DNA from: an uncultured Butyricicoccus sp.
GTDB lineage: Bacteria > Bacillota > Clostridia > Oscillospirales > Butyricicoccaceae
Length of the DNA: 64,000 nt
Assembly (NCBI GenBank): GCA_904420185.1
Contig: CAJFUJ010000057.1
Span: 1 to 64,000, forward strand
Reading direction: 5' to 3'
This document shows positions 10,632 through 24,100 of this stretch, one piece after another; the first letter of the stretch is position 1, and each line of letters opens with the position of its first letter. Under the pieces are notes generated by a model. That model searched no databases, was not told the origin of the DNA, and saw only the letters and a program-made list of their open reading frames with translations. The position numbers were made by a program, and so were the translations under genes.

Positions 10632-11819
10632 TTATTCGGCGACTGCCTTTTTCAGTGCATCGATGCGGTCGGTCTTTTCCCAAGCCACGCCGAGATCTTC
10701 GCGGCCCATGTGGCCGTAAGCGGCCAAGGGGCGGTAAATCGGTTGGCGCAGGCCAAGCGTGTTGATAATGGCGGCCGGGCGCAGGTCAAAGACCGCTTCC
10801 ACGGCGTCAGTCAGCTTGCTTTCGTCCACCTTGCCGGTGCCGAAGGTATCGACCATGATCGATACCGGACGCGCCACGCCGATCGCGTAGGCCAGCTGCA
10901 CCTCACAGCGGTCAGCCAGGCCGGCGGCTACGATATTCTTGGCCACATAGCGTGCAGCATAAGCGGCCGAACGATCCACCTTGGTGGGGTCCTTGCCCGA
11001 AAAGGCACCGCCGCCGTGGCGGCCGATGCCGCCATATGTATCGACGATGATCTTGCGGCCGGTCAATCCAGAATCACCCTGTGGGCCACCAATGACAAAC
11101 CGGCCGGTCGGGTTGACCAAAAAGCGGGTGTGCTCGTCGAGCAGGTGGGCGGGGATGACCGGGGTGATGACCTGCTCGATCATGTCCTGGCGGAGCTGCT
11201 GGATGGAAACTTCGGGGGAGTGCTGGGTGGACAGTACAACCGTATCCACACGGATCGGGCGGCATGCGTCGTCATATTCAACGGTGACTTGGGTCTTGCC
11301 GTCCGGGCGGAGGTAGTCAAAGGTGCCGTCCTTGCGCACCTGGGTCAGGCGCTTGGCCATTTTGTGGGCCAGCGAGATGGGCAGGGGCATTAGCTCGGGG
11401 GTATCGTTGCAAGCGTAGCCGAACATCATGCCCTGGTCGCCCGCGCCGGTGGCGAAGGCGGCTTCTTCGTCGCCCTCCTTGCGTTCGAGCGAATTGTCCA
11501 CGCCAAGCGCAATGTCGGCGCTTTGTTCGTCGATGGTAGTGATCACCGCGCAGGTGTCGCAGTCAAAGCCGTATTTGGCGCGGTCATAGCCGATGTCGCG
11601 GATGACCTGGCGGACCACCTTGGGGATATCGACATAGCATTTTGTAGAAATTTCACCCATGACCGAGACCATACCGGTTGTGCAGGTGGTTTCGCAGGCG
11701 ACGCGGGCATAGGGGTCGTTTTCCAGCATGGCGTCCAGGATTGCGTCGGAAATTTGGTCGCAAATTTTATCGGGATGTCCTTCGGTGACCGATTCAGAAG
11801 TAAATAAATGTTTTGCCAT
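10632..11819 (-). CDS. metK: S-adenosylmethionine synthetase
   Basis: MetK makes S-adenosylmethionine from methionine and ATP. The 395-residue product has family length and signatures: [20 protein letters not shown] at the N-terminus, [12 protein letters not shown] near the middle, and [19 protein letters not shown] in the C-terminal half. It lies downstream of a SAM-I riboswitch and a strong promoter on the same strand, so its expression should fall when SAM is abundant. Confidence 0.97.
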
Positions 11820-11856: not shown

Positions 11857-12010
11857 ATAAAAAAGCGCCCTCCGACGGAGCGAGCGCACTTGAGCCTCAT
11901 CTTTCGGTTCGCTGAACGAACAGAAGTACCGCCGGATTTGGCACCTTGCCAACTGGCAGGTTGCCGGGTTTCATCGGGCCGATCCCTCCACCGCTCTTGA
12001 TAAGGTATCC
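11857..12010 (-). promoter_or_regulatory. SAM-I (S-box) riboswitch controlling metK
   Basis: Read on the minus strand, the leader begins CTTATCAAGAGcGGTGGAGG, followed by the conserved GATGAAACCCGGCAACC block, the hallmarks of the S-box aptamer. It ends in a GC-rich hairpin (gcgctc...gagggcgc) followed by TTTTTTATTTT at about 11857-11863, the expression-platform terminator. SAM binding is known to favour the terminator in this class. Confidence 0.95.
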
Positions 12011-20830: not shown

Positions 20831-21340
20831 ATGAAGATCCAGATCGAACGCGGAGATATCACAACCTATGCAGTAGACGCCATTGTCAATGCAGCCAACA
20901 CTTCTCTCTTGGGCGGTGGCGGGGTGGATGGCGCCATCCATCGCGCCGCAGGCCCCGAACTGTTGGCCGAATGCCGCACGTTAAACGGTTGCCAAACCGG
21001 CCAGGCCAAGATCACAAAGGGCTACCGGCTACCGGCTAAGTTCGTCATCCACACGCCAGGACCTGTCTGGCGGGGCGGGACCCATGGCGAAGCTGCGCTG
21101 TTGCGCGACAGCTATCGCAATAGCCTGCTACTTGCACAGGAAAACGGCTGCCAGAGCGTAGCATTTCCATCGATTAGCACCGGGGTCTACCACTTTCCCC
21201 TCGAACAAGCGGCCGAGATCGCCTGTGCCACCATCCGGCAGACCCTGGCTGAATGCCCGGGCATCCAAACGGTCTATGTCGTGTGCTTTAACCAGCAGAC
21301 TTTGGATGCTTTCCGGCGCGCGGAGCAAAAACTGCTATGA
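20831..21340 (+). CDS. Macro-domain protein (O-acetyl-ADP-ribose deacetylase type)
   Basis: A 169-residue stand-alone macro domain. The ADP-ribose-binding signatures are clear: VDAIVNAANTSLLGGGGVDG near residue 18 and FPSISTGVYHFPLEQAA near residue 115. The length and sequence fit the YmdB/MacroD class that hydrolyses O-acetyl-ADP-ribose or mono-ADP-ribosyl groups. The ATG follows gaaaggagagccttgcg. The next gene starts inside its last codons, so the pair is coupled. Confidence 0.93.
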   Translation: MKIQIERGDITTYAVDAIVNAANTSLLGGGGVDGAIHRAAGPELLAECRTLNGCQTGQAKITKGYRLPAKFVIHTPGPVWRGGTHGEAALLRDSYRNSLLLAQENGCQSVAFPSISTGVYHFPLEQAAEIACATIRQTLAECPGIQTVYVVCFNQQTLDAFRRAEQKLL

Positions 21341-22233
21341 AGACGCTTTATGCGGCGTGCCGTCTGTGCCCGCGGGCATGCGGCGTCAACCGGCTGGCGG
21401 GGGAAAAAGGGGCATGCGGCGCAACCGCCCGCTTGGAGCTCAGCCGCGCCGCCTTACATCTGTGGGAAGAACCGCCGCTGACCGGCGCGAAAGGCTCGGG
21501 GACGGTGTTTTTCACCCACTGTGCGCTGGGGTGTGTATACTGCCAGAACCGTGCAATTAGCGTGCGCCAAGCCACCGGTGTGCCGACAGACGAAGTGCGT
21601 CTGGCGCAGATCTTCTTGGAGCTGCAGGCGCAGGGCGCGCAGAATGTCAATTTGGTCACAGCCGGGCAGTATTTGCCCCATGTGGTTTTGGGTATCCGCC
21701 GGGCGCGCGCGGACGGCTTGCGCATCCCGGTGGTGTATAACTGCGGCGGCTATGAATCGCCGGACGCGCTGCGGCTGCTGGACGGATTGGTGCAAATCTA
21801 CCTGCCCGATTTGAAGTATTATAGCAGCTATTATGCCGGGATGTATTCGAATGCGCCCGATTATTTTGAGGTTGCAGATGTGGCAATCGGGGAAATGGTG
21901 CGCCAGGCCGGTCCGGTCGCATTCGATTCCCAGGGGAATATGCTGCGCGGTGTTATCATCCGCCACCTGATGCTGCCCGGCCTTTTGGGCGACACCAAGC
22001 AGGTGCTCCGGCACATCGCCGCGCATTGGGGCGATCGGGTGCAAGTCAGCTTGATGCGGCAGTATACCCCCACCGGCATGGAGGGGTATCCTGAACTTGA
22101 CCGCACTGTCACGCAGGAAGAATACGACGAAGCGGTGCAATATTTTTCCGACCTGGGTCTTTGCGGCTATTTGCAGGATGCGGAAACTGCGTCCGAAAGC
22201 TTTATCCCCTCTTTTTTAGGAGAGGGGATTTGA
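21337..22233 (+). CDS. Radical SAM protein, PflA-like (PflX/YflX type)
   Basis: A 298-residue radical SAM enzyme. The [4Fe-4S]/SAM motif CX3CX2C is at C62, C66 and C69 (THCALGCVYCQNR). An extra N-terminal cysteine set (CRLCPRACGVNR plus GACGA) resembles the auxiliary motif of putative pyruvate-formate-lyase activating enzyme homologues. The true target is unknown. Its start overlaps the macro-domain stop by four bases (ATGA). A hairpin formed by tcccctc...gagggga overlaps its last codons and may act as a weak terminator. Confidence 0.87.
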   Translation: MKTLYAACRLCPRACGVNRLAGEKGACGATARLELSRAALHLWEEPPLTGAKGSGTVFFTHCALGCVYCQNRAISVRQATGVPTDEVRLAQIFLELQAQGAQNVNLVTAGQYLPHVVLGIRRARADGLRIPVVYNCGGYESPDALRLLDGLVQIYLPDLKYYSSYYAGMYSNAPDYFEVADVAIGEMVRQAGPVAFDSQGNMLRGVIIRHLMLPGLLGDTKQVLRHIAAHWGDRVQVSLMRQYTPTGMEGYPELDRTVTQEEYDEAVQYFSDLGLCGYLQDAETASESFIPSFLGEGI

Positions 22234-22239
22234 AGGCGC

Positions 22240-22268
22240 TTGACGGCGCGGAAAAAGTGTGCTATATT
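22240..22268 (+). promoter_or_regulatory. Promoter for the T-box transcript
   Basis: TTGACG (22240-22245), 17-base spacer, TATATT (22263-22268), located right after the radical SAM gene and before the T-box leader. Confidence 0.75.
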
Positions 22269-22279
22269 GAATGTACTTT

Positions 22280-22576
22280 AGAAGTTTATAGCGAAATATG
22301 CGATGAAAAGAAGAGTACTCGGCAGGCAAACGCAACAGAGAGCTTTCGTTTGGTGAAAGAAAGCGCGCACTTGCAGCCGTGGAAAATGGCCTTGGAGCTG
22401 CGCACCGACCCTGCACTTTTGCGGGTTAGGATGCGATGGGCGCGCCCATTACAGCGCTTGGAGTATCGGAATAGGCCTGTACTCGACAAGGTCCGCACTG
22501 TGAGGTGCGGATGAACCAAAGGTGGTACCACGAAGCTATGCTCTCGTCCTTCGGCAAGGAGGACGGGGGCTTTTTT
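22280..22576 (+). promoter_or_regulatory. T-box leader, specifier read as AUG (Met)
   Basis: The region carries the T-box hallmarks in order: gaagagta-type 5' element (agaagagtac), AGAGAGC with GGTGAAAG (Stem I), a specifier region ggaaaATGgccttggagc, the antiterminator sequence AAGGTGGTACCACG at about 22519-22532, and a terminator (ctctcgtcct/aggacggggg then TTTTTT) at 22541-22576. By alignment with the usual gaa-NNN-purine pattern the specifier is ATG at 22386-22388. The bulge UGGU fits a tRNA with A73, which agrees with tRNA-Met and not tRNA-Trp. GCC (Ala) is the main alternative. Confidence 0.88.
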
Positions 22577-22598
22577 ATTGTTGGAAAGGAGAATCAAT

Positions 22599-23102
22599 AT
22601 GCAAATTACATTGCGCAAATGGGAAGAACGGGACAGGAACAGTCTGGCGCAGTATGCAAACAACCCCAAAATTTCGGCCTGCCTGCGGGATACGTTTCCA
22701 TATCCCTACACAGAAGAGGACGCTGCATTTTTTATCCGCACGGCGCGCCATGCCCATTCGGAACGGGAATGGGTTCTGGCGATCGATTGCTGTGGTCAGG
22801 CCATTGGGGGCATCACGTTACAATTTGGCAGCGATGTATACGCACGCACGGCCGAGCTGGGGTATTGGGTAGGCGAGCCCTATTGGAACCAAGGCGCTGC
22901 AACCCAGGCCGTACAAGCATTGTGTACACGCGCTTTTGCGGAAACCCCTACGGTGCGTATCCAAGCCGAGGTGTTTGCCAACAATCCCGCGTCTATCCAG
23001 GTGTTGCAAAAAAACCGCTTCATCCAAGAAGGCTATTTTTGCAATCGGATTTACAAACAGGGGAGGTTTCTCGATTCGGTTTTGTTTGCCTTCTTGAAGT
23101 GA
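22599..23102 (+). CDS. GNAT-family N-acetyltransferase (RimJ-like)
   Basis: A 167-residue GNAT-fold acetyltransferase of the RimJ/RimL branch, with the N-terminal ITLRKWEERDRNSLAQYANN, the core strand IGGITLQ, and the acetyl-CoA-binding GYWVGEPYWNQGAATQAV. The start at 22599 follows ggaaaggagaatcaat. It is the only gene after the T-box, so its expression should respond to uncharged tRNA. The acceptor substrate cannot be told from sequence; small molecules, including amino acids or amino-acid analogues, are possible. Confidence 0.88.
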   Translation: MQITLRKWEERDRNSLAQYANNPKISACLRDTFPYPYTEEDAAFFIRTARHAHSEREWVLAIDCCGQAIGGITLQFGSDVYARTAELGYWVGEPYWNQGAATQAVQALCTRAFAETPTVRIQAEVFANNPASIQVLQKNRFIQEGYFCNRIYKQGRFLDSVLFAFLK

Positions 23103-23280: not shown

Positions 23281-23314
23281 AACAGTTCGGTGGATGCACA
23301 CCGAACTGTTTTAA
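23281..23314 (+). terminator. Terminator-like hairpin in the leader of the SGNH lipoprotein gene
   Basis: aacagttcggtg and caccgaactgtt form a perfect 12-bp stem around gatgca, followed by tttt. It lies about 50-80 bases after the likely transcription start and before the coding region, so it may attenuate the operon or end a short RNA. Confidence 0.65.
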
Positions 23315-23356: not shown

Positions 23357-24100
23357 ATGATTCCAAATAAGAAATTGCTTGCTTTCATAACTGTAATGGT
23401 ATTTGCCTTTACAACCATATCCGGATGTGCGGGTGGGAAAGGCGCGTCAAGTGAAAGCCCAGACAGCGCTGCGGCGAGCAGTGCGCCGGCAGCATCCCAA
23501 TCGGCGGCGGATGAACCGCCGCAGCCGGCCGATTTGTCCACGGCCGCTATGGTGGGCAATTCTTACTTAGAAGGGTTCGTCGGGTACAATATCCTGCCGG
23601 AAACCGATTGCTTTTTCCGGGTTGGCTTGACCATCCGTACGGTGTTCACCGAACCGATGATTGGCCGCGATATTCCGGTGATCGACGAGCTGAGCAACGG
23701 GAAAACCTATGACCGGGTTTTCCTGTGTTTCGGTGAAAATGAGTTGGGATGGACCAATTTGCAGGCCTTTTACGACGGATATGGCGACGTGATCGATGCA
23801 GTTCGGGCGCGCCAGCCCGAAGCAGCCGTCTATGTGCAATCGATCTTGCCGGTATCTGCCGAGGTGTCGGCAAAGAATCAGGATTCCACCAACAACGATC
23901 GTATCCGGCAGTTCAACGAGATGCTCAAGCAGCTGGCAAGCGAGAAGGACGCGGTCTATTTGGACGTGGCCTCGGTGATGACCGACGAAAACGGAAACCT
24001 GCCCGATGGCGCCGCGACAGACGGCATCCATCCGGGAATTGAATACTATGAAATTTGGGCGGAATATCTGCGGGAAAATGCAATTCTGCCGAGCGAATAG
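23357..24100 (+). CDS. SGNH/GDSL-type lipoprotein
   Basis: A 247-residue predicted lipoprotein: N-terminal hydrophobic segment and lipobox ending ISGCAGG, a Ser/Ala-rich spacer to about residue 65, then an SGNH hydrolase fold. Block I is MVGNSYLEG (GNS where GDS is typical, nucleophile Ser kept), block III is FGENELGW, and the catalytic Asp/His are in DGIHPG near the end. It is likely anchored outside the membrane and acts as an esterase or acetyltransferase on a surface glycan. It opens the four-gene O-acetylation locus. Confidence 0.8.
   Translation: MIPNKKLLAFITVMVFAFTTISGCAGGKGASSESPDSAAASSAPAASQSAADEPPQPADLSTAAMVGNSYLEGFVGYNILPETDCFFRVGLTIRTVFTEPMIGRDIPVIDELSNGKTYDRVFLCFGENELGWTNLQAFYDGYGDVIDAVRARQPEAAVYVQSILPVSAEVSAKNQDSTNNDRIRQFNEMLKQLASEKDAVYLDVASVMTDENGNLPDGAATDGIHPGIEYYEIWAEYLRENAILPSE

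Follow-up and report, generated by a model that had tools for sequence, protein, structure and literature searches.

A T-box leader with a methionine specifier precedes a single GNAT acetyltransferase gene related to operon partners of metG

Introduction

Why should a leader RNA that senses uncharged tRNA be placed in front of an acetyltransferase gene? The question is raised by a locus within a 64,000-nucleotide stretch of DNA from an uncultured Butyricicoccus sp. (the whole of which is called the window below). T-boxes are well known, as are those that specify methionine and those that precede metG, the gene for methionyl-tRNA synthetase (MetRS). Their targets are taken to be synthetase, biosynthesis and transport genes. 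A preliminary description of the window had recognized a promoter, the elements of a T-box with a likely methionine specifier and a terminator, all upstream from a lone RimJ-like gene of the GNAT superfamily. It had suggested that the enzyme acts on methionine, on a methionine analogue or on some product accumulating during amino acid starvation. Neither a T-box with a GNAT gene as its only target nor a T-box-GNAT-metG operon was found in the literature searched, which is no proof of absence, and acetyltransferases are not mentioned in the main text of the TBDB paper on 23,535 T-boxes.

Results

Scanning the window with the Rfam covariance models (cmscan) yielded a single T-box (RF00230, E 1e-19), whose score of 95.6 bits exceeds the gathering cut-off of 93 and confirms the earlier assignment. 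It is one of 11 T-boxes identified with Rfam in the source genome (G000), a 2.1 Mb draft in 66 contigs, 83% complete, with Butyricicoccus species as its closest named relatives. Promoter, T-box elements and terminator were all located in the order previously proposed (Table 1). The region contains two promoter-like sites against 0.8 expected. The terminator stem (fold z = -3.8) and the antiterminator share sequence, namely the 3′ arm of the latter, so that the two structures are mutually exclusive. RNAalifold analysis of 14 leaders of GNAT genes revealed compensated changes at 23 of the 53 consensus pairs.

The GNAT gene starts with the ATG at 22599; the open reading frame listed from a TTG at 22578 is merely the mechanically longest one. 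Because a strong hairpin separates GNAT from the following GDSL gene (at 23357), the T-box transcription unit consists of a single gene, as the preliminary description had it. Two genes upstream from the T-box lies the gene for a macro-domain protein (20831-21340) that scores over the NCBIfam cut-off as an O-acetyl-ADP-ribose deacetylase. The window also carries a SAM-I riboswitch (85 bits; 11894-12006, minus strand) directly upstream of metK (10632-11819, minus strand); S-box and T-box thus coexist in the methionine/SAM control of the source genome.

Table 1. Features of the T-box-GNAT locus (positions in the window).
Feature	Position	Strand	Basis or remark
Radical SAM protein gene, upstream neighbour outside the T-box-GNAT unit	21337-22233	+	same position in G046 (L013) and B. 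pullicaecorum (L045)
Sigma-70-type promoter, TTGACG-17-TATATT, extended -10 TG	22240-22268	+	10/12 matches
T-box leader (RF00230): stem I, specifier loop, stem II/III region, antiterminator	22294-22554	+	cmscan and covariation
Specifier codon AUG (Met), followed by G22389 and the basal stem I helix	22386-22388	+	invariant; register from covarying pairs
T-box motif AAGGUGGUACCACG	22519-22532	+	read from sequence
UGGU bulge, complementary to A73-CCA	22523-22526	+	within the T-box motif
Intrinsic terminator, 13-pair stem (22540-22570) plus T6	22540-22576	+	alternative to the antiterminator
Ribosome binding site AAAGGAG	22585-22591	+	read from sequence
GNAT acetyltransferase, 167 aa, Acetyltransf_3, RimL/RimJ-like	22599-23102	+	Pfam/NCBIfam, PDB profile and structure comparison
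Terminator-like strong hairpin between GNAT and the next gene	about 23281-23311	+	-22.6 kcal/mol, z -4.3

In the Rfam alignment, the segment GAA-A-AUG-G precedes the basal helix of stem I. Run unprompted on the 14 GNAT leaders, RNAalifold makes column pair 18:99 the closing pair of the specifier loop, leaving AUG in columns 95-97 and one G before the helix. Changes on both sides with preserved pairing occur among these leaders at 7:107 (G-C to A-U), 15:102 (A-U to G-C) and 18:99 (G-C to A-U), and the methionine leaders of metG add a C-G pair at the 15:102 place (L194) and an A-U pair at the 18:99 place. Since these covarying pairs fix the edge of the helix, the codon is read as AUG followed by one purine, with the caveat that the basal helix is topped by an A·C mismatch in the window, as it is in the closest relative. 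AUG is invariant in all 14 leaders. Folded alone, stem I does not adopt the T-box fold in single-sequence free folding (z 0.4); the register therefore rests on covariation and not on single-sequence energy. When the same register rule was applied to the 10 other T-boxes of the genome, the amino acid fitted the downstream gene (named from its protein sequence) in nine: Val for ilvB and valS, Leu for leuA, Phe for pheS and the DAHP synthase gene, Trp for trpB and trpE, Ala for alaS and Thr for thrS. The tenth (L011; G000:C4:19233-19451) specifies Ile (AUC) and precedes genes for a multi-subunit 2-oxoacid:ferredoxin oxidoreductase, with no classical Ile gene; it may serve reductive synthesis of branched-chain amino acids. 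Covariation and invariance thus uphold the AUG specifier and its following G, and the fold places no other codon in the specifier loop.

The 3′ end of the source genome's elongator tRNA-Met reads ...CCGCU-A-CCA (A73), and that of its initiator tRNA (L147:1501-1576) ...CCCUGCA-C-CCA (C73). In the Butyricicoccus-type clade of the window, each of the 13 initiator tRNAs retrieved (L152-L164) has C73; those of Agathobaculum-type and other genomes have A73. The UGGU bulge is complementary to the discriminator of the elongator and not to that of the initiator. As C73 cannot pair with UGGU, the leader should read the elongator in the Butyricicoccus-type clade, and the match of the bulge to A73 tRNA-Met pointed out previously stands for this tRNA and fails for the initiator. 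C73 is an unusual residue in an initiator tRNA, possibly linked to the T-box-free state of metG in this clade (see below).

The GNAT gene is found in 30 of 87 genomes of the family (E ≤ 1e-15). A T-box lies right upstream in each of the six nearest relatives (56-74% identity in GNAT), always with AUG; seven Butyricicoccus-type genomes (the window and L013-L018) have the methionine T-box and GNAT together. The order radical SAM gene/T-box/GNAT is common to the window, G046 and B. pullicaecorum, indicating that the T-box-GNAT unit was inherited. A methionine T-box is also present in six Agathobaculum-type genomes whose GNAT is about 43% identical. A scan of 85,462 species produced one further, more distant case (L075); 354 relatives make up the GNAT subfamily as found in one scan. 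The pairing therefore recurs in relatives of both types and in L075.

A search with the specifier region through the order detected the same leader immediately ahead of metG in Agathobaculum-type genomes without GNAT. In other families it precedes metG or genes for a metN-like ATPase or a metQ-like lipoprotein. In L075 and all Agathobaculum-type T-box-GNAT loci, metG follows GNAT. The distance is mostly 43-49 nt, as in the simple T-box-GNAT-metG arrangement of G008, G022 and G023; G017 and G025 have an added alpha/beta hydrolase gene (PF12146) and G011 has an added CPBP-like ORF, with about 670 nt from GNAT to metG. Altogether, 11 of the 22 Agathobaculum-type genomes carry T-box-metG alone, 6 carry T-box-(cargo)-GNAT-metG, 2 (G019 and G001) have remnants of a decayed GNAT between T-box and metG, and in 3 no T-box was found. 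The stretch from T-box to metG in these genomes holds varied cargo (L208:1028-1456, L206, L210) and resembles a small hot spot for inserted genes, governed by tRNA-Met. Since GNAT sits in the MetRS T-box operon of relatives, the leader is of the MetRS type and not one recruited for amino acid catabolism, and GNAT is best read, from gene order, as an accessory of that operon. This link had escaped the preliminary description, whose other main points (T-box, methionine specifier, single GNAT) stand; the recurrence in relatives that it had asked to be tested is borne out.

GNAT is not part of a metG operon in the source genome, where metG lies elsewhere (G000:C11), as it does in the other Butyricicoccus-type genomes. 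No T-box was detected upstream from metG in any of 11 Butyricicoccus-type genomes (L225-L231, L241-L244), including all seven that have the T-box-GNAT pair; in these seven, the leader is thus kept for GNAT alone. As AUG, UGGU and terminator survive before GNAT in genomes whose metG has no T-box, selection probably maintains tRNA-Met control for GNAT itself. In a quick tree of the GNAT proteins, the T-box-linked members fall into three groups, which made repeated independent capture look likely. The AU test does not reject a single origin behind the leader (p-AU 0.13), for which reason such capture is not claimed; GNAT may have come under the leader on one occasion or on as many as three.

The protein matches Pfam family PF13302 (Acetyltransf_3; E 1.3e-24, 87.9 bits against a cut-off of 25.4). 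Its best NCBIfam match is RimL, with 37.1 bits against an equivalog cut-off of 184; RimJ scores 25.1 against 190. A profile search of the PDB with the T-box-linked GNATs retrieved MccE (2.1e-11) and RimL (about 3e-11), both about 20-24% identical to GNAT, behind only uncharacterised GNATs and mycobacterial RimJ. Spermidine acetyltransferases and phosphinothricin-type enzymes ranked lower. In MccE, Phe466 and Trp511 belong to the adenosine pocket and Ser553 is the general acid (PMC4363471). The corresponding F45 and W90 are invariant in our alignment and S132 is nearly so; the comparison covers these three positions, that of Trp453 not being alignable. Both aromatic residues, F45 and W90, recur widely in this section of the GNAT superfamily; their presence does not prove a nucleotide substrate. 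The AlphaFold model (pLDDT 79, moderate) has a TM score of about 0.7 to many solved GNATs, and a structure search with it did not discriminate between substrates.

Most relatives of GNAT have no T-box and lie beside other genes, often translation genes, so that the reaction need not be specific to methionine. The neighbours include translation-quality genes, in the arrangements rnr-GNAT-smpB, hflX-GNAT, pth-GNAT, queA-GNAT-tgt and next to truA (L066, L068, L092, L096, L100, L101, L105, L110, L116; L051, L070, L087, L090; L050; L077; L099, L109, L121), an observation uncorrected for the general frequency of GNAT genes near translation genes. A gene of the PF06838 (Met_gamma_lyase) family precedes GNAT in L098, L104 and L108; as a methionine link it was discarded as weak, the gene lying behind miaA (seen in L104). 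GNAT is followed in L098 and L104 by an alpha/beta-hydrolase-like protein whose Pfam match is weak or absent, so that GNAT lies beside a hydrolase for the second time; the hydrolase-like proteins of L022 and L104 show no detectable relationship.

Discussion

Regulation of GNAT by tRNA-Met through the T-box is well supported by the comparison of sequences. The best explanation for the data as a whole, in which we place moderate confidence, is that a tRNA-Met T-box controls a MetRS-linked GNAT, a putative RimL/MccE-like N-alpha-acetyltransferase that would remove a small aminoacyl compound tied to MetRS. Methionine shortage, or a blocked or overloaded MetRS, would leave elongator tRNA-Met uncharged. 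Its CAU anticodon would then pair with the specifier AUG and its A73-CCA end with the UGGU bulge, the antiterminator would form, and GNAT would be made. We infer that induction takes place when MetRS cannot charge tRNA-Met and, more weakly, that some small aminoacyl compound of MetRS serves as the substrate. The arrangement suggests that the enzyme protects or supports methionine loading.

Two candidate substrates for N-acetylation may be considered. MetRS makes homocysteine thiolactone at low methionine, in proportion to the MetRS level, and excess methionine stops the reaction (PMC5370406). Acetylation of the amine would quench the toxic thiolactone released by MetRS proofreading under these conditions, with the operon's alpha/beta hydrolase as a candidate for opening the ring. 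The second candidate is an adenylate-type inhibitor. RimL and MccE acetylate many aminoacyl-nucleotides, and acetylation of the alpha-amine inactivates synthetase inhibitors of the aminoacyl-nucleotide class (PMC3817062). By raising the level of uncharged tRNA-Met, a MetRS inhibitor would switch on the very enzyme, GNAT, that could counteract it. Against both candidates speaks the placement of relatives that have no T-box next to other genes, often related to translation, which would equally suit a RimL-like action on proteins. That GNAT is a dedicated guard of MetRS clearing one or the other compound, in some species together with the operon's alpha/beta hydrolase, is a tentative idea, to which we would give rather low odds in this precise form.

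A quite different possibility is that chance placed GNAT behind a metG leader, which it merely retained; responding to tRNA-Met would then mean nothing for the reaction catalysed. Such an accident would agree with the other cargo in the gap between T-box and metG (hydrolase in G017 and G025, CPBP-like ORF in G011), with the decay of GNAT in two genomes and its absence from 11 others, and with the many unrelated operons in which its relatives are found. A useless leader should, however, decay, and here it is complete (AUG, UGGU, terminator) before GNAT proteins of identity down to 56%, in genomes whose metG lacks a T-box. Retention of the leader on GNAT while metG has none is the strongest argument against a mere relic. 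The presence of the subfamily behind methionine T-boxes in three tree groups points the same way, although one origin is not rejected. We consider the accident unlikely. Doubtful, too, is a role as a RimL/RimJ-type modifier of protein N-termini or ribosomal proteins, adjusting translation to a shortage of methionyl-tRNA. The top NCBIfam match is RimL, which is also close in structure, and in other lineages the gene adjoins smpB, hflX, pth and truA; yet the RimL and RimJ scores fall far under their equivalog cut-offs.

That methionine or one of its analogues is itself acetylated, after the manner of methionine sulfoximine/phosphinothricin acetyltransferases, appears improbable. Such a reaction would suit the methionine specificity of the leader and some structural likeness to phosphinothricin acetyltransferases (5dwn), but the match to the phosphinothricin-type profile (1vhs, 8.8e-5) is far weaker than those to MccE and RimL. 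Free methionine in particular is not favoured because its acetylation would deepen the very starvation that induces the enzyme. To this extent the substrate proposed in the preliminary description is unlikely; its broader class, an analogue or a starvation product, remains our preference, in the form of a methionine analogue or a product of starved or blocked MetRS. Finally, reading of tRNA-Trp (UGG, +1 base), tRNA-Asn (AAU, -1 base) or, as preferred by the S. aureus met T-box (PMC3771891), the initiator is very improbable: both codons overlap AUG, but the covarying pairs place AUG plus one purine before the helix, the genome's genuine Trp leaders show UGG in the register of AUG, the leader belongs to metG in relatives and the clade's initiator has C73, so that covariation, operon context and C73 rule these tRNAs out.

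The conservation of a methionine T-box over several genera for an acetyltransferase, and the comparison tying this enzyme to MetRS, give an uncharacterised GNAT subfamily its first functional handle. They make it testable whether bacteria possess an inducible enzyme for the removal of homocysteine thiolactone or of MetRS inhibitors. If GNAT does guard MetRS, a tRNA-sensing riboswitch would be controlling detoxification and not amino acid supply or charging.

Several known systems bear comparison with this one. Certain GNAT toxins act on charged tRNA, an example being AtaT on Met-tRNA-fMet. The GNAT of the window is like them in fold and in a possible link to Met-tRNA; no antitoxin-like gene was seen beside it and no toxin occurs among the PDB profile matches. 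The acetyltransferase domain of MccE, which confers self-immunity to microcin C, and RimL share the GNAT subfamily fold and, as far as the positions could be aligned, the conserved Ser and aromatic residues; the enzyme of the window differs in its T-box control, and no microcin cluster was seen beside its gene. The staphylococcal met T-box (metICFE-mdh, PMC3771891) is likewise a methionine T-box on a non-synthetase operon. There it governs biosynthesis and prefers the initiator tRNA, whereas here it governs GNAT, and C73 of the initiator favours the elongator. Closest are the leaders of metS and metG (RF00230), with the same architecture, AUG specifier, UGGU bulge and transcription terminator; the sister genus carries the window's type of leader on metG itself. 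In the window, in contrast, a lone GNAT lies downstream, and metG of the source genome is without a T-box, a clear example of a riboswitch leader retained by a one-time operon partner in genomes whose synthetase gene has escaped its control.
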